From: Campylobacter lanienae NCTC 13004
GTDB taxonomy: Bacteria; Campylobacterota; Campylobacteria; Campylobacterales; Campylobacteraceae
Reading direction: 5' to 3'
NCBI RefSeq assembly: GCF_002139935.1
Contig: NZ_CP015578.1
Location: 1,178,001 to 1,242,000 of the forward strand
DNA length: 64,000 nt
Shown here: in pieces, positions 43,130 to 51,306 of the stretch
Numbering within the stretch: the first letter of the stretch is position 1
How the letters are laid out: each line of letters opens with the position of its first letter
The notes under the pieces: generated by a model
What the model saw: the letters and a program-made list of their open reading frames with translations, nothing else
Database searches by the model: none
What the model was told of the DNA's origin: nothing
Made by a program: the position numbers and the translations under genes

Positions 43130-44137
43130 ATGAATCCATTTGTCATAGCTGAAATGTCAGCAAACCACTGCGGTGATAAGAATTTAGCCTTTAAAATCAT
43201 AAAAGCCGCTAAAGATGCAGGTGCCGATGCTATCAAAGTTCAAACCTACACCGCCGATACCATCACGATTAATTCTAGAGATGAGATTTTCATGACTAGA
43301 GATGATGAGCTTTGGGCTGGGCAGAGCCTGTATGAGCTTTATCAAAAGGCCTATACCCCTTGGGAGTGGCAAGGCGAGCTTAAAGCTTATGCTGATGAGA
43401 TTGGGATTGAGTTTTTTAGCACGCCATTTGATTTTAGTGCGGTTGATTTTTTAGAAAGTATCAATGTAAGTAGGTATAAAATAGCCTCATTTGAAGCGAT
43501 GGATTATCCGCTTATTCGCTACGCAGCAAAGCATAAAAAGCCTATGATTATCTCAACTGGAGTATCTGAAATTGAAGAAATATATGAGGCAATTGAAGCT
43601 TGTAAAAGTGTAGGAAACAATGATATAACCATTCTTAAATGCACTTCTGATTATCCAGCTAAGATAGAGGATATGAATATTGCTACCATAGCTGATATGG
43701 TAGCTAGATTTAGCCCACTTGGCGTTAAGGTCGGTCTAAGCGATCACTCAATGAGCTTAGAGGTGCCAATTTGCGCTGTTGCCCTTGGTGCTAGCGTGAT
43801 AGAGAAGCACTTCACACTTGATAGAGCCTTAGGCGGCGAAGATAGCGGATTTTCTCTTAATTATGATGAGTTTAGCGCCATGGCAAAAGCAGTCAAAAAT
43901 GCCTATAAGGCTCTAGGAAAGGTAGATTATAGCTTTGATGAGAAAAATCGCAAATATGCTAGATCGCTTTTTGTAACAAAAGATATTAAAAAAGGGGAAA
44001 TTTTAACCCCACAAAATATCCGCTCCATTCGTCCAGCTCAAGGCTTGCACCCTAAATATTATGATGAAGTAATAGGCAAAAGAGCGCTAAAAGATCTTAA
44101 ATTTGCCAAGCCTTTAGAATTTAGCGATTTTGAGTAA
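43130..44137 (+). CDS. pseI: Pseudaminic acid synthase
   Basis: PseI condenses 2,4-diacetamido-2,4,6-trideoxy-L-altrose with phosphoenolpyruvate. The start is put at the ATG at 43130: GGAG lies 5 nt upstream and the N-terminus reads MNPFVIAEMSANHCG. The 335-residue protein has GADAIKVQTYTADTITINSRDEIF, VSTGVSEIEEI-like loops, GLSDHS and VALGASVIEKHFTLD, then a C-terminal antifreeze-like SAF domain (residues 280-335, RSLFVTKDIKKGEILTPQN). It resembles C. jejuni PseI Cj1317 more than NeuB-type enzymes, for example in KIASFEA. Next gene is the legionaminic synthase. Confidence 0.9.
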   Translation: MNPFVIAEMSANHCGDKNLAFKIIKAAKDAGADAIKVQTYTADTITINSRDEIFMTRDDELWAGQSLYELYQKAYTPWEWQGELKAYADEIGIEFFSTPFDFSAVDFLESINVSRYKIASFEAMDYPLIRYAAKHKKPMIISTGVSEIEEIYEAIEACKSVGNNDITILKCTSDYPAKIEDMNIATIADMVARFSPLGVKVGLSDHSMSLEVPICAVALGASVIEKHFTLDRALGGEDSGFSLNYDEFSAMAKAVKNAYKALGKVDYSFDEKNRKYARSLFVTKDIKKGEILTPQNIRSIRPAQGLHPKYYDEVIGKRALKDLKFAKPLEFSDFE

Positions 44138-44141
44138 AACT

Positions 44142-45140
44142 ATGCAAAAAGTATATATAATAGCTGAAGCAGGAGTAAATCACAATGGCAGTTTAGATAG
44201 CGCTAAAGCCTTGATAGATGAGGCTTACAGGGCTGGAGCAAATGCGGTGAAATTTCAAACTTTTAAGGCTGAGAATTTAGCTAGCAAAACGGCTTTAAAA
44301 GCTAGTTATCAAAAGCAAACTACAAATGCCAACCAAAGCCAATATGATATGCTAAAAGCCCTTGAGCTAAGCTATGATGACCATGTTGAGCTAATCTCAC
44401 ACGCTAAAAGCCTTGGGATTGACTTTTTATCTACGCCTTTTGATATAGACTCAGCTAATATGCTCTATGAGCTTGGGATTAAGAGTTTTAAAATTCCAAG
44501 TGGGGAGATTACAAATTTACCCCTACTTCGCACCATAGCTAAATTTCAAAAACCGATAATTCTCTCAACTGGTATGGCGACAATGAGTGAAATAAGCGAT
44601 GCTTTAAGCATTCTTACGCAATATACAAAGCTAGAAAATATCACGATTTTACACGCTAATACGCAGTATCCAACCCCATTTTGTGATGTGAATTTAAAAG
44701 CGATGAATAGCATTGGAGCGCAATTTGGGGTTAAATTTGGCTATAGCGATCACACTTTGGGGATTTATGTGCCTATTGGGGCTGTTGCCCTTGGCGCTAG
44801 CGTGATAGAGAAGCACTTCACGCTTGATAAAACTCAAAATGGCCCAGATCACAAAGCTAGTTTAGAGCCAAATGAGCTAAAAATGATGGTAGATGGGATT
44901 AGGGCTATAGAGGCCTCTTTAGGCGATGGTATCAAGCGTCCAAGCCCAAGCGAGATTGAAAATATCAATATCGTTAGAAAATCCATAGTAGCAAAGCGTG
45001 ATATTATTAAGGGGGAAATTTTAAATGAGCAAAATATCATCACCAAAAGAAGCCTTCTAATTGGCATAAGTCCGATGAAATGGGATAAAGTCATAGGGCA
45101 AATAGCTAAAAAAGATTATAAAAAAGATGAGATAATATGA
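44142..45140 (+). CDS. legI: N,N'-diacetyllegionaminic acid synthase
   Basis: LegI (NeuB2, C. jejuni Cj1327) condenses 2,4-diacetamido-2,4,6-trideoxymannose with PEP. The ATG at 44142 is chosen since MQKVYIIAEAGVNHNG is the family start; a TTG four codons earlier is possible, and neither has a strong Shine-Dalgarno. The 332-residue protein shows GANAVKFQTFKAENLASK, KIPSGEITNLPLL, LSTGMATMSEI, SDHTLGI and a C-terminal SAF domain. Sialic acid synthase activity cannot be excluded by sequence, but the following legG-ptmEFBA order defines a legionaminic route. Confidence 0.9.
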   Translation: MQKVYIIAEAGVNHNGSLDSAKALIDEAYRAGANAVKFQTFKAENLASKTALKASYQKQTTNANQSQYDMLKALELSYDDHVELISHAKSLGIDFLSTPFDIDSANMLYELGIKSFKIPSGEITNLPLLRTIAKFQKPIILSTGMATMSEISDALSILTQYTKLENITILHANTQYPTPFCDVNLKAMNSIGAQFGVKFGYSDHTLGIYVPIGAVALGASVIEKHFTLDKTQNGPDHKASLEPNELKMMVDGIRAIEASLGDGIKRPSPSEIENINIVRKSIVAKRDIIKGEILNEQNIITKRSLLIGISPMKWDKVIGQIAKKDYKKDEII

Positions 45141-46285
45141 GAAAAATTTGTGTAATTACAGGCTCTAGGGCTGAGTATGGGCTATTATATTGGCTTATTA
45201 GTGAGCTTAGCATTAGTGATAGTCTAAGACTTCAGCTAGTAGTTACAGGTAGCCATCTAAGAAGCGAATATGGCAATACATATTTAGAAATTCAAAATGA
45301 GTTTAATATCGATAAAAAAGTAGATATATTAAATTTCTCAAACGACGCTCTTGGCGTGTGTAAATCAATGGGTGAAGCCATTAGTAAAATTGGAAAAGCC
45401 TTAAGTGAGCTTAGCCCTGATATAGTGGTTGTTTTGGGTGATAGATATGAGATATTTTGCGCTGCGGCGGCTGCTTTGGTGCTTGGAATTCCTATAGCTC
45501 ATATTCATGGTGGTGAGCTAAGTGCTGGAGCGATAGATGAGGCATTTAGACATAGCATTACTAAGATGGCAAATATCCATTTTACCGCAGCCAAAGAGTA
45601 TGCTAAAAGGGTGGCTCAGCTAGGAGAGGATCCTAAATTTATATTTAATGTCGGTGGAATGGGAATTGAAAATATCAAAAGATTAAAGCTTTTAAGCAAA
45701 AGAAAATTTCAAGACTCAATCAAATTTAAATTAAATAAGAAAAATATCTTAGTTACATACCATCCACTCACTACAAAAAAGGATAGTCAAGATGACTTTA
45801 AAGAGATTTTAAAAGCCCTAAGTGAGCTAAAAGATACAAATATCATCTTTACCAAAGCCAATAGCGATGCTGGTGGAATGGCTATAAATAAAATGATAGA
45901 TGAGTATGTCAAATCCCACCCAAACTCCATCGCCTTTGCCTCTTTGGGTAGCTTAAGGTATTTAAGCGCTTTAAAATATGTAGATATAATCTTAGGCAAT
46001 AGCTCAAGCGGCCTTTTAGAAGCCCCAAGCTTAGGGGTTGCTACTATAAATGTAGGCTCTAGGCAAGATGGTAGATTAAAGGCTTTAAGCGTCATAGATA
46101 CCAAGCCGATTAAATCTCAAATTTTAAAAGCGATAAAACTAGCCTACACTTCAAAATTTCAAAAAATAGTCCAAAAAAAGCAAAATCCATATGGCAACTC
46201 AAAACCTAGCAAAGCCATAATAAAGGTGCTAAAAAATATAAATTTAAAAGGCATAACAGTAAAAAAATTTAAGGATATAGTATGA
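45137..46285 (+). CDS. legG: Hydrolysing UDP-GlcNAc-type 2-epimerase of legionaminic acid synthesis
   Basis: LegG (NeuC2, C. jejuni Cj1328) converts a GDP-activated diacetamido-sugar to the 2-epimer and releases the nucleotide. The 382-residue protein has ITGSRAEYGLLYWL at the start, VVLGDRYEIF with active Asp, AHIHGGELSAGAIDEAFRH (catalytic region) and LGNSSSGLLEAPSLGV. It overlaps legI by 4 bp. Its TGA overlaps the first ATG of ptmE, allowing translational coupling. Confidence 0.9.
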   Translation: MRKICVITGSRAEYGLLYWLISELSISDSLRLQLVVTGSHLRSEYGNTYLEIQNEFNIDKKVDILNFSNDALGVCKSMGEAISKIGKALSELSPDIVVVLGDRYEIFCAAAAALVLGIPIAHIHGGELSAGAIDEAFRHSITKMANIHFTAAKEYAKRVAQLGEDPKFIFNVGGMGIENIKRLKLLSKRKFQDSIKFKLNKKNILVTYHPLTTKKDSQDDFKEILKALSELKDTNIIFTKANSDAGGMAINKMIDEYVKSHPNSIAFASLGSLRYLSALKYVDIILGNSSSGLLEAPSLGVATINVGSRQDGRLKALSVIDTKPIKSQILKAIKLAYTSKFQKIVQKKQNPYGNSKPSKAIIKVLKNINLKGITVKKFKDIV

Positions 46286-47367
46286 GAGATTGGGGGGGGG
46301 TATTGCCCTATGAGCAAAAAGGGTATATTATGGATATAAACTCTATAAAACTAAGCCCAAATAGCACGATCAAAGAGGCATTAAAGATAATAAACAATGG
46401 TGCTTTACAAATGGCTTTGGTCGTAGATGAAAATGGAGCGCTCCTAGGCACGATAAGCGATGGAGATATCAGGCGTGGACTACTAAATTCAATGGAGCTT
46501 ACTAGTAGCATTGAGAGCCTATACTACCGCACGCCGATCATCTCAAATTCCCCCATAATCCCAGCTTCTATCCTGACAAAAGCAAAAGCCAAAAATATCC
46601 GCTACATACCAATTATAGATCAAAATGGCATAGCAATAGCGATCAAAAATATCTATGAATCAAACAAAACAAAGCCAAATCAAGTGGTATTGATGGCAGG
46701 CGGGCTTGGTATGAGACTTCGCCCACTTACTAGCAAAATCCCAAAGCCAATGCTCCATGTAGGGCCAAAGCCCATTTTACAAACCATAATCGAAAGCTTT
46801 ACTTCTTATGGATACCTAAATTTTACAATATGTGTTAATTACCGCTCAGAGATTATCAAAGAGTATTTTGGCAATGGAGATAAATTTGGTATCAATATCA
46901 GTTACATTCACGAGAGCAAACGACTAGGAACAGCTGGGGCTTTAAGCCTTATTGATAGACCACAAGATGAGTTTTTCGTGATGAATGCTGACCTGCTAAC
47001 TAACGCTGATTTTAGCAAACTTCACGACTATCACAACGCTCACAAATCCATAGCCACAATGTGCGTGCGAGAGTATGAGATGCAAGTGCCTTATGGGGTT
47101 GTAAATTTAGATGATAACACCATAAAATCCATCACAGAAAAGCCAAAATCCAAATTTCATGTAAGTGCTGGAATATATATGCTAAAGCCACAAATTTTGG
47201 ATTTAATAGATAAAAATAGCTATCTTGATATGCCAGATCTATTTAATCAACTAGCCGCTAAAGGCCTTAATCCAAAGGCCTATCCAATTAGCGAAAAGTG
47301 GCTAGATATAGGTAGAATCGAGGAGTATAATACCGCAAATGAAATTTACAATGAGTTTTTCTCATGA
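46282..47367 (+). CDS. ptmE: CBS-domain nucleotidyltransferase PtmE, G9 tract at 5' end
   Basis: PtmE (C. jejuni Cj1329) makes GDP-glucosamine for the GDP-based legionaminic route. Two CBS units come first (about residues 25-125), then a nucleotidyltransferase with VVLMAGGLGMRLRPLTSKIPKPM (residues 135-155). The longest start, ATG 46282, overlaps the legG stop, and four codons later enters nine Gs at 46292-46300. An internal ATG at 46330 begins MDINSIKLSPN, with AAGGG 6 nt upstream, and looks like the ancestral start (345 residues). With nine Gs the upstream start is in frame; eight or ten Gs put it out of frame. Start choice is thus uncertain and probably phase-variable. Confidence 0.85.
   Translation: MRDWGGVLPYEQKGYIMDINSIKLSPNSTIKEALKIINNGALQMALVVDENGALLGTISDGDIRRGLLNSMELTSSIESLYYRTPIISNSPIIPASILTKAKAKNIRYIPIIDQNGIAIAIKNIYESNKTKPNQVVLMAGGLGMRLRPLTSKIPKPMLHVGPKPILQTIIESFTSYGYLNFTICVNYRSEIIKEYFGNGDKFGINISYIHESKRLGTAGALSLIDRPQDEFFVMNADLLTNADFSKLHDYHNAHKSIATMCVREYEMQVPYGVVNLDDNTIKSITEKPKSKFHVSAGIYMLKPQILDLIDKNSYLDMPDLFNQLAAKGLNPKAYPISEKWLDIGRIEEYNTANEIYNEFFS
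46292..46300 (+). repeat. Poly-G tract (G9) at the 5' end of ptmE
   Basis: Nine consecutive G residues lie ten bases after the upstream ptmE ATG. Tracts of about eight or more Gs are the classic phase-variable contingency repeats of Campylobacter. In this sequence the count keeps the upstream ATG in frame. Eight Gs would give a stop (TAA) just after the internal ATG; ten Gs would give a TGA after about ten codons. Confidence 0.9.
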
Positions 47368-48257
47368 GAGCACTCATCATCTCTATGGGCTCAATCGGGC
47401 TTAGACACTATGAAGTGCTAAGTAAAATGGGGATAAAAGCCCACGCCATATCATCACAAAATATAGAAAATATCACTATTTACAAAGATTTACATGAGGT
47501 AAATTTAGAGATATATGACTACTTCATCATCGCTTCTGCGACGCATCTGCACTATGAGCATTTAAGCTATATTGACTCTAAAGTATCTGGTAAAATCATA
47601 CTTTGTGAAAAGCCGTTATTTGATAAATTTAAGCCATTTAGCCCAAATAATCAAATTCTAATTGGCTATAATCTTAGATTTCACCCTTTGATATTAAAGC
47701 TAAAAAATATGCTAAAAAATGAAAAAATTCTATCCATTGAGGCACGATGCGGTCAATATCTACCTTCTTGGCGAAATAGGGATTATACCAAATCATATAG
47801 TGCTTATAAAGAGCGTGGTGGTGGGGTTTTGCTAGATCTTAGTCATGAGATTGATTATATCAGATTTTTATGTGGATTTAATCTAGAATTAATCAAAGGC
47901 GTTCAAGATAAAATTTCAAATTTAAACATCACAAGCGATGATATATCAATGATATTAGCTCGCTCTAATGGTGCTTTAATCAATATTAGCCTAAACTACC
48001 TAAGCAAAGTGGCAAATCGCCAAATTTTCGTTGAGACAAATGATAATAGCTATCATCTTGATCTTATAGCAAATGAGCTTAAAATCACTAATAAAGATGG
48101 ATTAACCACGCTAATCAATGAGCCAAATTTAGATAGAAATGCTCTATTTATGGCTATGCACGCCGATGCTTTGGGCTTACAAAAATATATATGTAAATTG
48201 AATGAAGCTCTAGATACAATGAGATTAATAGATCAAATTCAAAAGGATAATAGATGA
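47364..48257 (+). CDS. ptmF: Gfo/Idh/MocA-family oxidoreductase PtmF
   Basis: PtmF (C. jejuni Cj1330 position) is assigned to production of the GDP-sugar precursor in the legionaminic pathway. The 297-residue protein begins RALIISMGSIGLRHYEVL, a dinucleotide-binding start. It has CEKPLF near residue 78 (the catalytic-lysine motif EKP of this family) and GGGVLLDLSHEIDYIRFLCG near 155. It overlaps both neighbours by 4 bp. The chemistry is inferred from the family and operon; direct evidence of its step is limited. Confidence 0.82.
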   Translation: MRALIISMGSIGLRHYEVLSKMGIKAHAISSQNIENITIYKDLHEVNLEIYDYFIIASATHLHYEHLSYIDSKVSGKIILCEKPLFDKFKPFSPNNQILIGYNLRFHPLILKLKNMLKNEKILSIEARCGQYLPSWRNRDYTKSYSAYKERGGGVLLDLSHEIDYIRFLCGFNLELIKGVQDKISNLNITSDDISMILARSNGALINISLNYLSKVANRQIFVETNDNSYHLDLIANELKITNKDGLTTLINEPNLDRNALFMAMHADALGLQKYICKLNEALDTMRLIDQIQKDNR

Positions 48258-48955
48258 GTGATATACTATGTACCATCTGTGCTAGGGGCGGTAGCAAGGG
48301 AGTTAAGAATAAAAATATCCGCCAAATTGCTGGTCTCCCATTAATTGCCCACACAATAAATCAAGCTAGAGAGTGTGGACTATTTGATCACATAGTTATC
48401 AGCACGAATAGCGATGAGATAGCTAGCGTGGCTCAAAATTATGGTGGTGAAGTATTTTTCAAGCGAAATGAAAATCTAGCTAGTGATAACGCTGGGAAGA
48501 TCCCTGCTATCCGTGATGCGCTAATTAGATCGCAAGAGCATTATAAGCGTGAATTTCCTTATATAATAGACCTTGATGCCACTTCGCCACTTCGATTAGC
48601 TAGTGATATCAATAGAGCTTTTAAGCAGTTTATAGATGATGATAATGATATCCTAATCACAGCCGCACCTAGTCGCCGTAGCCCATACTTTAACCTAATA
48701 GAGAGGCAAATTGATGGCACAATAAATTTAAGCAAACCACTCCCAAATGCGATTTTACGCAGACAAGATGCACCGCAAACCTATGATATGAACGCCTCAA
48801 TCTATATATGGAAATCTCAAATTTTATTAAATCACGATGAGCTATTTTTGCCTAAAACTGGACTATACATAATGCCTCAAAATCGCAGCATTGATATAGA
48901 TGATGAGCTAGATTTTATGATTGTAGAGCAAATTTTAAGGAGTCAAAATGCTTAA
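48254..48955 (+). CDS. ptmB: CMP-legionaminic acid synthetase
   Basis: PtmB (LegF, C. jejuni Cj1331) activates legionaminic acid with CMP. The 233-residue protein has CTICARGGSKGVKNKNIRQI at the start, the cytidylyltransferase signature, then GLPLIAHTI and STNSDEIASVAQ. It is distinct from PseF by the GSKGVKNKN motif, as in NeuA/LegF proteins. It overlaps ptmF by 4 bp and ptmA by 8 bp. Confidence 0.9.
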   Translation: MSDILCTICARGGSKGVKNKNIRQIAGLPLIAHTINQARECGLFDHIVISTNSDEIASVAQNYGGEVFFKRNENLASDNAGKIPAIRDALIRSQEHYKREFPYIIDLDATSPLRLASDINRAFKQFIDDDNDILITAAPSRRSPYFNLIERQIDGTINLSKPLPNAILRRQDAPQTYDMNASIYIWKSQILLNHDELFLPKTGLYIMPQNRSIDIDDELDFMIVEQILRSQNA

Positions 48956-49682
48956 AGATAAAGTAGTAGTAATAATAGGTGGCTCAGGACTAATCGGCAA
49001 GGCCTTTGTAAGCGCCACTATCCAAAATCACGCCACAACAATCAACGCCGATATATCCAAACCAAATTTAGAACAAAAATGCGATTTCATAAGCACAGAT
49101 ATCACAAACCAAAACTCACTAGATAATCTAATAGAACAAGTTAGCCAAAAATATGGCAAGATAGATGCTGTGGTAAATTCAGCCTATCCTAGAACCAAAA
49201 GCTTTTCAAATCACTTTTTTGATGTGGATTATGAGGATTTTTGTCTAAATACAAATTTACAGCTTGGTGGGGCGTTTTTGGTGATGCAAAGATTTGCTAA
49301 ATATTTCAAAACTCAAGGATATGGCAATATAATCACACTCTCATCTATCCAAGGCGTGGTCGCTCCTAAATTCCAAACCTACAAAGGCACGCAAATGAGC
49401 TCACCAGTAGCTTATAGCGCTATCAAAGCGGGCGTAATCCACCTAAGTCGCTACCTAGCTAAATACCTAAAAGGGAGCAACATTAGGGTCAATTGTATAA
49501 GCCCAGGGGGAATTTTGGATAATCAAAATGAGATATTTTTAAAACAATATAAAGATGTCTGCCTAAGCAAGGGAATGCTCGATCCTAGCGATATTTGCGG
49601 GGCTTTGATATTTTTGCTTAGTGATTATAGCGAGTTTATCAATGGGCAAAATATCATAGTTGATGATGGATTTTGCTTATAA
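48948..49682 (+). CDS. ptmA: Short-chain dehydrogenase PtmA
   Basis: PtmA (C. jejuni Cj1332) is an SDR-family enzyme in the GDP-sugar branch of legionaminic acid synthesis. The 244-residue protein has the nucleotide-binding VVIIGGSGLIGKAFV, catalytic Ser in TLSSIQGV, and the YSAIKAG motif (Tyr-x3-Lys) near residue 163. It ends the tightly overlapped legI-to-ptmA block. Campylobacter PtmA was first described as needed for flagellin post-translational modification. Confidence 0.88.
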   Translation: MLKDKVVVIIGGSGLIGKAFVSATIQNHATTINADISKPNLEQKCDFISTDITNQNSLDNLIEQVSQKYGKIDAVVNSAYPRTKSFSNHFFDVDYEDFCLNTNLQLGGAFLVMQRFAKYFKTQGYGNIITLSSIQGVVAPKFQTYKGTQMSSPVAYSAIKAGVIHLSRYLAKYLKGSNIRVNCISPGGILDNQNEIFLKQYKDVCLSKGMLDPSDICGALIFLLSDYSEFINGQNIIVDDGFCL

Positions 49683-49695
49683 AGCTTAAATTAGT

Positions 49696-49701
49696 TATAA
49701 T
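49696..49701 (+). promoter_or_regulatory. Candidate -10 element for the poly-G methyltransferase gene
   Basis: TATAAT in the context AGTTATAATCAAAC lies 24 bp upstream of the ATG at 49725. It suggests separate transcription from the leg operon, although readthrough is possible. Confidence 0.4.
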
Positions 49702-49724
49702 CAAACAAATTTTAAAGGAGAAAA

Positions 49725-50417
49725 ATGGATAATTCACTATCAGCATACATTACAAAGTATGATACACAGGGCTACGGCTTAGAGTTTCCTGATGGACATG
49801 TTATTAGATTTTATGAGAGAATTTTAAATTTCGCTCTTAATAAAACTAGTGGAAATCTATTAGATTTTGGTTGTGGTAATGGGGTTCATTCTAAATATTT
49901 TGCTAAGCGTTCAGGGGGGGGTATAAGGCCATTTGGCATAGATATTGTGCCAAGCTTAAAGCAAATTTGGCATAATGATCCCCATATAGATCAAGATAAT
50001 TTTCATATAATCGAGCCAAATAGCTCATTTGCTCATCTATTTAAACAAAAAATGGACTTCATCTTTGCTAATCAAAGTTTATACTATCTTAGCAAAAATC
50101 ACTTCGAAACTACCATAAAAGAGCTTTATGATATCTGTAATGATGGCGCCATAATCTTTGCTACAATGATGGCAAATGAGTGCTATGATATGTATCAAAA
50201 ATCCACCCCACTACCAAATGGCTTAACCCATATCCAAGGCACCCCCACAGGTAGAATGAGCGAGGACTCATATATTAAATTTACTAAGGATATAGAGCAG
50301 TTAAAAGATGATTTTAAGCTATTTGAGCCACTATATTTTGGTGATTATACGCCGATTAATCTATATAATTTTGAAGGTAGCTCAAGGCATTTTATATTTA
50401 TTGGTAAAAAAATTTAA
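49725..50417 (+). CDS. Phase-variable SAM-dependent methyltransferase (PtmH-like)
   Basis: The 230-residue protein has a class I methyltransferase motif LLDFGCGNGVHSKYFAKR (near residues 44-62) and continues with PFGIDIVPSLKQIW and IFANQSLYYLSKNHF. Between them are Ser63-Gly-Gly-Gly coded by eight Gs at 49914-49921, located at the SAM-binding loop. As written the frame is open (ON). A G7 tract gives a TAA after Val, and G9 also shifts into a stop. The C. jejuni equivalents Cj1325/1326 (ptmH) carry a poly-G tract in the same flagellin-modification locus. It probably methylates a legionaminic or pseudaminic acid derivative. It has AAAGGAG and its own -10 upstream. Confidence 0.82.
   Translation: MDNSLSAYITKYDTQGYGLEFPDGHVIRFYERILNFALNKTSGNLLDFGCGNGVHSKYFAKRSGGGIRPFGIDIVPSLKQIWHNDPHIDQDNFHIIEPNSSFAHLFKQKMDFIFANQSLYYLSKNHFETTIKELYDICNDGAIIFATMMANECYDMYQKSTPLPNGLTHIQGTPTGRMSEDSYIKFTKDIEQLKDDFKLFEPLYFGDYTPINLYNFEGSSRHFIFIGKKI
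49914..49921 (+). repeat. Poly-G tract (G8) inside the methyltransferase gene
   Basis: Eight consecutive Gs encode three glycines next to the SAM-binding motif. The present length keeps the gene in frame; a gain or loss of one G truncates the protein at about one third of its length. This is a typical Campylobacter ON/OFF switch. Confidence 0.9.
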
Positions 50418-50425
50418 GATAAATC

Positions 50426-50461
50426 TCTCTAAATTTGCTAAATTCATAGCAAATTTAGAGA
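50426..50461. terminator. Bidirectional terminator between methyltransferase and fliY
   Basis: TCTCTAAATTTGCTA, loop AATTCA, TAGCAAATTTAGAGA form a perfect 15-bp stem between convergent genes. T-rich tails are short on both sides, but the stem is long and the position ideal. Confidence 0.8.
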
Positions 50462-50472
50462 CAATAAGAAAT

Positions 50473-51306
50473 TTATTTGAGTTGTTCTAAGCGCTCTTTT
50501 TTACTGCCGATTTCTGTGATTTGGACACCGAAGTTACCATCTACAATCACCACTTCGCCAAGGGCAACTGGCTTATCACCTATTAAGACTTCAAGCGGAT
50601 CATTTGCTAGCTGATTTAGCTCAATAACAGAGCCAATATCCATAGACAATACATCTTTTAATAGCATTTTTTTAGATCCTATGCGCACCCTAATCGGTAG
50701 CCTTACATCCATAATTAGCCCGATATTTCTAATCTCATCGCTTAGATCGTGCTTCTGCTCTGATTTATTCTCTTTTTGGTTTGAAGATTCTGCTTTATGA
50801 AAGTATTTATAAAACGCAAAATCAATACAAACCCCCATCATCTCGCTTAAATTCGCTATACCAACTTGATACAAAAACATCTTTTCAAATGAGGTAAAAT
50901 CCAAAATTTGATTCTCATCGATATACTTAACTGCGTTGATAGTGAAATTTATCTTTGGCATATCCTTAGCCGCACCAAGGCTAGTTGTGATAGCGCTTAG
51001 CAAATTCGAAAATATCTCTTTTGCAGCATCTAGCTCATCATCGCCGATTACTACATTGCCTGTTGGCTCTTCTTCGCCTAGCATCAAGTCATTTATCGCA
51101 GTCAGCAAAAGTGGAGAAGCTACGATATTCATCTTGCCATTTATATCGCCACTTAGAGCTATATTAGCTATTACAACTGGGGTTTTAATCCCATTTTGCG
51201 TTGGGGCATCGTATTCAGCCGGATCTGATATCTGCGGCGTAGCACCTGTTAATCCCTCTATTGTCGCACTCAATTCATTTTTGAAAATCTCAAAAAATCT
51301 AATCAT
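50473..51306 (-). CDS. fliY: Flagellar motor switch phosphatase FliY
   Basis: FliY is a C-ring protein and putative CheY-P phosphatase. The start is put at the ATG at 51306 (MIRFFEIFKNELSATIEGL); seventeen codons upstream in the longest frame lie within fliM. The 277-residue protein has a CheC-like segment near 70-110 (GEEEPTGNVVIGDDELDAAKEIFSNLLS) and a C-terminal SpoA/FliN domain (VRLPIRVRIGSKKMLLKDVLSMDIGSVIEL). It overlaps fliM by 8 bp. The Shine-Dalgarno GAGG falls in the acidic tail codons of fliM. Confidence 0.92.
   Translation of the reverse strand: MIRFFEIFKNELSATIEGLTGATPQISDPAEYDAPTQNGIKTPVVIANIALSGDINGKMNIVASPLLLTAINDLMLGEEEPTGNVVIGDDELDAAKEIFSNLLSAITTSLGAAKDMPKINFTINAVKYIDENQILDFTSFEKMFLYQVGIANLSEMMGVCIDFAFYKYFHKAESSNQKENKSEQKHDLSDEIRNIGLIMDVRLPIRVRIGSKKMLLKDVLSMDIGSVIELNQLANDPLEVLIGDKPVALGEVVIVDGNFGVQITEIGSKKERLEQLK

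Follow-up and report, generated by a model that had tools for sequence, protein, structure and literature searches.

Phase-variable genes are usually scored by the length of their tract: in-frame lengths count as ON and all others as OFF. Multi-start phase variation with graded output has been described for lic2A of Haemophilus influenzae, in which, as reported in a later source (Dixon 2007, cited in PMC4235727), a 5′ repeat is combined with more than one initiation codon. In Campylobacter jejuni, tracts of G8 to G11 occur in flagellin-glycan genes and in the legionaminic-acid locus (cj1295, cj1326, maf1, and maf4; PMC4965091, PMC8355987), and legionaminic acid on flagella has been linked to chicken colonization in this species (PMC13130089). 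A length-variable G repeat in the mRNA leader of tlpB-hp0102 in Helicobacter pylori, bound by the RepG small RNA, governs graded surface-glycan expression (PMC8295292). Tract length can also alter one end of a protein: the 3′-end tract of C. jejuni cj0045c does so rather than abolishing the protein (PMC4965091), and C-terminal switching in Helicobacter canadensis has a similar effect (PMC4235727).

Here we analyze a G tract at the 5′ end of ptmE in a 64,000-nucleotide stretch of the Campylobacter lanienae NCTC 13004 genome (the window), to which positions refer unless a genome is named with them. We consider it somewhat probable that this tract varies in phase within a translated leader, which lies between two functional starts, and that it serves as an isoform and dosage switch rather than as an off switch.

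A G9 tract between two starts at the legG-ptmE junction

The gene preceding ptmE is legG (ptmD; 45137–46285, on the plus strand, as are all features of the junction), which encodes a NeuC-type UDP-sugar 2-epimerase, as identified by operon order and by a match to NCBIfam TIGR03568 (455 bits; cut-off, 235.9). It ends in a TGA codon at 46283–46285. Within its 3′ end lies an SD sequence, AAGGA (SD1, 46271–46275), followed by an ATG (ATG1, 46282–46284) that overlaps the legG stop as ATGA. Nine Gs stand at 46292–46300, and a second SD sequence, AAGGG (SD2, 46319–46323), precedes an internal ATG (ATG2, 46330–46332) that corresponds to the start of ptmE in tract-free relatives. The leader that separates the two starts (46282–46329) is 48 nt long and supplies 16 codons in frame at G9, such that the ORF encodes 361 residues from ATG1 and 345 from ATG2, with the leader adding 16 residues (MRDWGGVLPYEQKGYI). 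The ptmE core (46330–47367) contains the CBS domain(s) and a nucleotidyltransferase (Pfam CBS and NTP_transferase), and its product is predicted by orthology to be a GlcN-1-P guanylyltransferase.

ATG2 is always in the ptmE frame; ATG1 is in frame at G9 and out of frame at G8. With ten Gs, the ATG1 frame would stop after 10 codons at a TGA (46311–46313) that ends about 16–17 nt before ATG2, and with eight it ends at a TAA (46337–46339) just past ATG2, which is exactly how a natural G8 allele, that of the relative G008, behaves. A preliminary description of this DNA had placed the overlapping ATG, the 16-residue extension, the stops at G8 and G10, and the AAGGG of the internal start in just this way, and all of these readings hold.

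Tract length differs among relatives that retain both starts

The search for PtmE covered 120 related genomes and 16 genomes of the genus, with G000 denoting the window genome; the comparison takes one genome per species and spans three independent ptmE lineages. The tract is carried by six of the nine ptmE-bearing genomes of the genus (G000, G008, G007, G006, G004, and G010). It occupies the same legG-ptmE junction in all six ptmE-bearing genomes of the C. lanienae-type cluster, at lengths of 9, 8, 9, 9, 8, and 9. A SelB match over the family cut-off was found in none of the six tract-bearing genomes, as against all three tract-free ptmE-bearing genomes of the genus; a lack of selenium metabolism is the trait by which C. 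lanienae, C. devanensis, C. porcelli, and C. vicugnae are grouped (PMC11261738), and by this trait the window genome most likely belongs with them.

Where ptmE lacks the tract, as in G001, G011, G015, and other genera, it starts no more than a few residues from ATG2, which is also where the CBS domain begins. The window shares the gene order legI-legG-ptmE-ptmF-legF-ptmA with other Campylobacter genera, and in a second such genus it is the start codon of ptmE itself that overlaps the legG stop. Because tract-free ptmE genes begin at or near ATG2 and this overlap exists elsewhere, the leader is most simply read as a derived insertion at a coupled junction. An origin by tandem duplication of the start region was considered and rejected: SD1-ATG1 and SD2-ATG2 match at 12/14, 13/14, and 9/14 positions, which is not clearly beyond random segment pairs.

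Two pairs of relatives differ in the leader by a single G. G000 (G9) and G008 (G8) encode identical PtmE proteins from genes about 1.3% different in DNA, and G010 (G9) and G004 (G8), whose ptmE genes are about 2.7% apart, follow the same pattern. These one-G differences in otherwise identical leaders mark the tract as the fastest-changing site of the leader. That they stem from homopolymer sequencing or assembly error is hardly credible. The lengths were indeed read from single assemblies, two of which (G004 and G010) are metagenome bins from sheep and yak gut, but the tract itself is present in all six genomes, and poly-G tracts of this size slip in C. jejuni (PMC4965091, PMC8355987).

Between the three lineages, the leader retains about 68–79% identity with 6–16 gap positions, and three islands stand out in its alignment as conserved, namely SD1-ATG1, the tract itself, and SD2-ATG2. 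SD1 with ATG1, the latter found in all six genomes, is invariant at 13 of 15 positions. For SD2-ATG2, 11 of 14 positions are invariant versus 5 of 24 in the remaining leader (Fisher p = 0.0008, a value that is indicative only, as the sequences are related). The tract has been retained across about 20–25% DNA divergence. Leader length minus the tract is 39, 42, and 36 nt in the three lineages, all multiples of 3, so that G9 fuses ATG1 to PtmE in every lineage; the chance of such frame keeping is about 1/9 by an alignment-free estimate.

That G9 keeps the frame in all three lineages is what ordinary ON/OFF phase variation would also predict, with ATG2 too weak to matter and G8 and G10 effectively off, and the arrangement of SD, ATG, and tract is common in the family (75 of 150 genomes). 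We nevertheless regard ON/OFF switching as fairly unlikely here, since ATG2 and SD2 are retained in all six genomes despite the diverged leader around them, and ATG2 is the ancestral start.

Every reading phase ends in PtmE or close to the internal start

The reading frame of ATG1 closes at +10 relative to ATG2 in one natural G8 allele (G008) and in an ATGA overlap with ATG2 at +4 in the other (G004), both of which are ordinary coupling geometries; that the leader stop falls over ATG2 in these alleles is a further point against a simple off state. A hypothetical G10 would leave about 16–17, 19, or 1 nt between the stop and ATG2, depending on which of the three lineages is read. By frame reading, all phases thus yield either a PtmE fusion or a ribosome terminating within about 20 nt of ATG2. 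Duplex energies of SD2 (−2.6 to −4.0 kcal/mol) lie within the range of the first ATGs in the window (median −3.8), and in G006, G004, and G010 SD2 is moderate, being matched by a third of internal ATGs. Given these energies and the proximity of every phase to ATG2, we infer that the enzyme is probably made at every tract length. The AAGG of SD2 also codes for leader residues (K-G or E-G), and the peptide could explain its retention.

The leader is predicted to be disordered, with a pLDDT of about 23 compared with 76–91 in the following CBS region, in a shallow five-sequence model whose C-terminal half is poor; within the limits of that model, an effect on amount seems likelier than one on fold. 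The prediction of disorder also led us to reject the leader as a domain or signal. An RNA-structure switch was likewise discarded because, by folding energy, the six natural alleles do no better than shuffles (z −0.4 to 1.5); SD2 can pair with GCCCU in G000 and G008, and this pairing is not conserved. Pattern counts for an internal promoter or terminator are at chance level.

A disordered leader, RNA structure not beyond chance, and phases that each reach ATG2 by fusion or nearby termination are also what one would expect of a hypermutable leader with nearly neutral function, in which fusion and reinitiation would supply the same amount of PtmE whatever the length and slippage would have no consequence. 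Retention of the tract through the divergence described above is unexpected of a neutral accident, however, and we consider this reading unlikely. Control at the RNA level, by a C/U-rich small RNA pairing with the G tract so that length sets the effect, has an epsilonproteobacterial precedent in RepG, for which 6–16 Gs give graded output (PMC8295292). It is very unlikely for ptmE, where the tract lies inside a translated leader in mid-operon rather than in a 5′ UTR, where such control would not need frame keeping, and where an Rfam scan of window positions 44000–51000 found no match and hence no Rfam family near the locus.

Under the dual-start reading that we favor, ribosomes finishing legG would restart at ATG1. 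At in-frame lengths, including the G9 seen here, they would read through the tract to give PtmE with an extra front end of 15–17 residues. At other lengths, they would make a short peptide terminating close to ATG2, and the short form of PtmE would then arise from ATG2 through its own SD sequence and termination-reinitiation. Slippage would accordingly change the isoform and probably the output, not the presence or absence of the enzyme. The earlier interpretation stands in part. With a dual start, a length that varies in relatives, and both starts and their SD sequences conserved, its proposal that the tract is not a simple on/off switch is the more economical reading. Such switching might also grade the supply of PtmE and GDP-glucosamine, and so legionaminic acid on flagella, as that interpretation further proposed.

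Poly-G tracts across the genome and a second case in ptmG

Dinucleotide shuffles predict 0.17 runs of at least eight Gs per 64 kb, and the window holds two; the whole genome contains 49, which marks it as a poly-G contingency-locus genome. The G9 of ptmE passes the published Campylobacter cut-off for phase-variable genes, a G tract of at least 7 in or next to an ORF (PMC6321876). The second tract of the window is a G8 at 49914–49921 inside a methyltransferase gene (49725–50417) that adjoins ptmA. It is in frame here, as it is in relatives with G8 (G008) and G10 (G007). Its homolog in another Campylobacter genus (53%) lies within the ptm operon, and the gene is probably the known phase-variable cj1325/cj1326.

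For most of the remaining 5′ tracts, here and in relatives, no internal start backed by an SD sequence lies nearby, and in this genome such tracts look like plain switches (for example, G000:8022, 137346, and 1114503), a point in favor of the ON/OFF alternative. At G000:C1:8022, on the minus strand, a G8 lies nine bases after the start of the ATG of a formyltransferase-like gene without an internal start, and it looks like a plain 5′ on/off tract. Two further tracts show other arrangements. At G000:C1:205394, a G8 immediately precedes the start codon of an ORF of 327 codons; slippage there would change the SD-to-start spacing and not the frame. A G9 at G000:C1:1172945 breaks a type III DNA methyltransferase-like gene, which is out of frame here.

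Among the 49 tracts, only one other shares the two-start leader shape of ptmE. This tract (G000:455783) precedes an N-acetyl sugar amidotransferase gene (TIGR03573, 362 bits, cut-off 203), and the profile starts exactly at the internal ATG. The gene is 73–74% identical to the amidotransferase that lies inside the ptm operon in another Campylobacter genus (two genomes), and its relative in G001 adjoins ptmE; on both grounds we identify it as ptmG (G000:C1:455767–456912), which has a two-start G9 leader as in ptmE. It has moved out of the ptm operon and now lies just 3′ of aroC, with a 4-nt overlap with the aroC stop.

The two-start G-tract leader of ptmG occurs in five genomes of the cluster (G000, G006, G008, G007, and G010). 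SD, ATG1, G9, and ATG2 are in frame in the first four, with leaders such as MNGDFRGGV, and the G9 of G010 is out of frame. In G007, a 1-nt loss 5′ of the tract is offset by a 1-nt gain 3′ of it. The sequence upstream of ptmG in G004, a metagenome contig, is unlike that of all relatives and lacks a long tract, which is possibly the result of an assembly join. Read at G8, the leader stop of ptmG would form TAATG over the internal ATG. The tract itself can act as the SD sequence of that ATG, and ptmG, which belongs to the same legionaminic-acid pathway, would use the same device with the tract as internal SD. Recurrence in a second gene of one pathway is, again, unexpected of a neutral accident. 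We tentatively suggest that a slippery poly-G leader has been gained by both PtmE and PtmG, separating the old start from a strong start upstream of it, so that the pathway may be tuned by independent dosage and isoform switches and never be fully off.

Comparison with known systems

If a tract lies between two working starts, as in ptmE and ptmG, scoring in-frame lengths as ON and the rest as OFF would be in error. All states would contain the enzyme, differing in its front end and perhaps in its amount, and partial changes of flagellar legionaminic acid would become possible. The natural G8 and G9 alleles in near-identical loci make the question directly testable.

The preliminary description had called a dual-start 5′ tract in ptmE unfamiliar, and our search of the open-access literature agrees: it found neither an account of ptmE as phase variable nor a description of such an arrangement for ptmE or ptmG. 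The glycan genes of C. jejuni resemble ptmE in tract, pathway, and bacterial family. In the 28 phase-variable loci of C. jejuni NCTC11168, however, the tract stands either upstream of the gene or no nearer to its start than +87 (PMC4965091, PMC8355987); ptmE and ptmG are absent from the 28, and for no locus does the list give a dual start flanking the tract. The tlpB repeat acts through small RNA pairing in a 5′ UTR, without a translated leader or frame effect (PMC8295292). In cj0045c and in H. canadensis, it is the C-terminal end that changes, whereas in ptmE it is the start.

The nearest likeness is to lic2A. As far as the cited account describes it, the frame relation of its starts depends on repeat number, as in ptmE, and its output is graded and not binary, as may also be so for ptmE. 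The alternative starts of lic2A, by the same account, all lie upstream of the repeat in different frames; ATG2 of ptmE lies downstream of a mononucleotide tract. Compared with lic2A as described there, the upstream start of ptmE sits behind the coupled legG stop, and the core enzyme could be made at any length. Multi-start phase variation is thus already known from lic2A, and what appears to be new is the two-start G-tract leader of ptmE and ptmG. Overall, ptmE would work like lic2A, but as a variant in which the second start is downstream of the tract.
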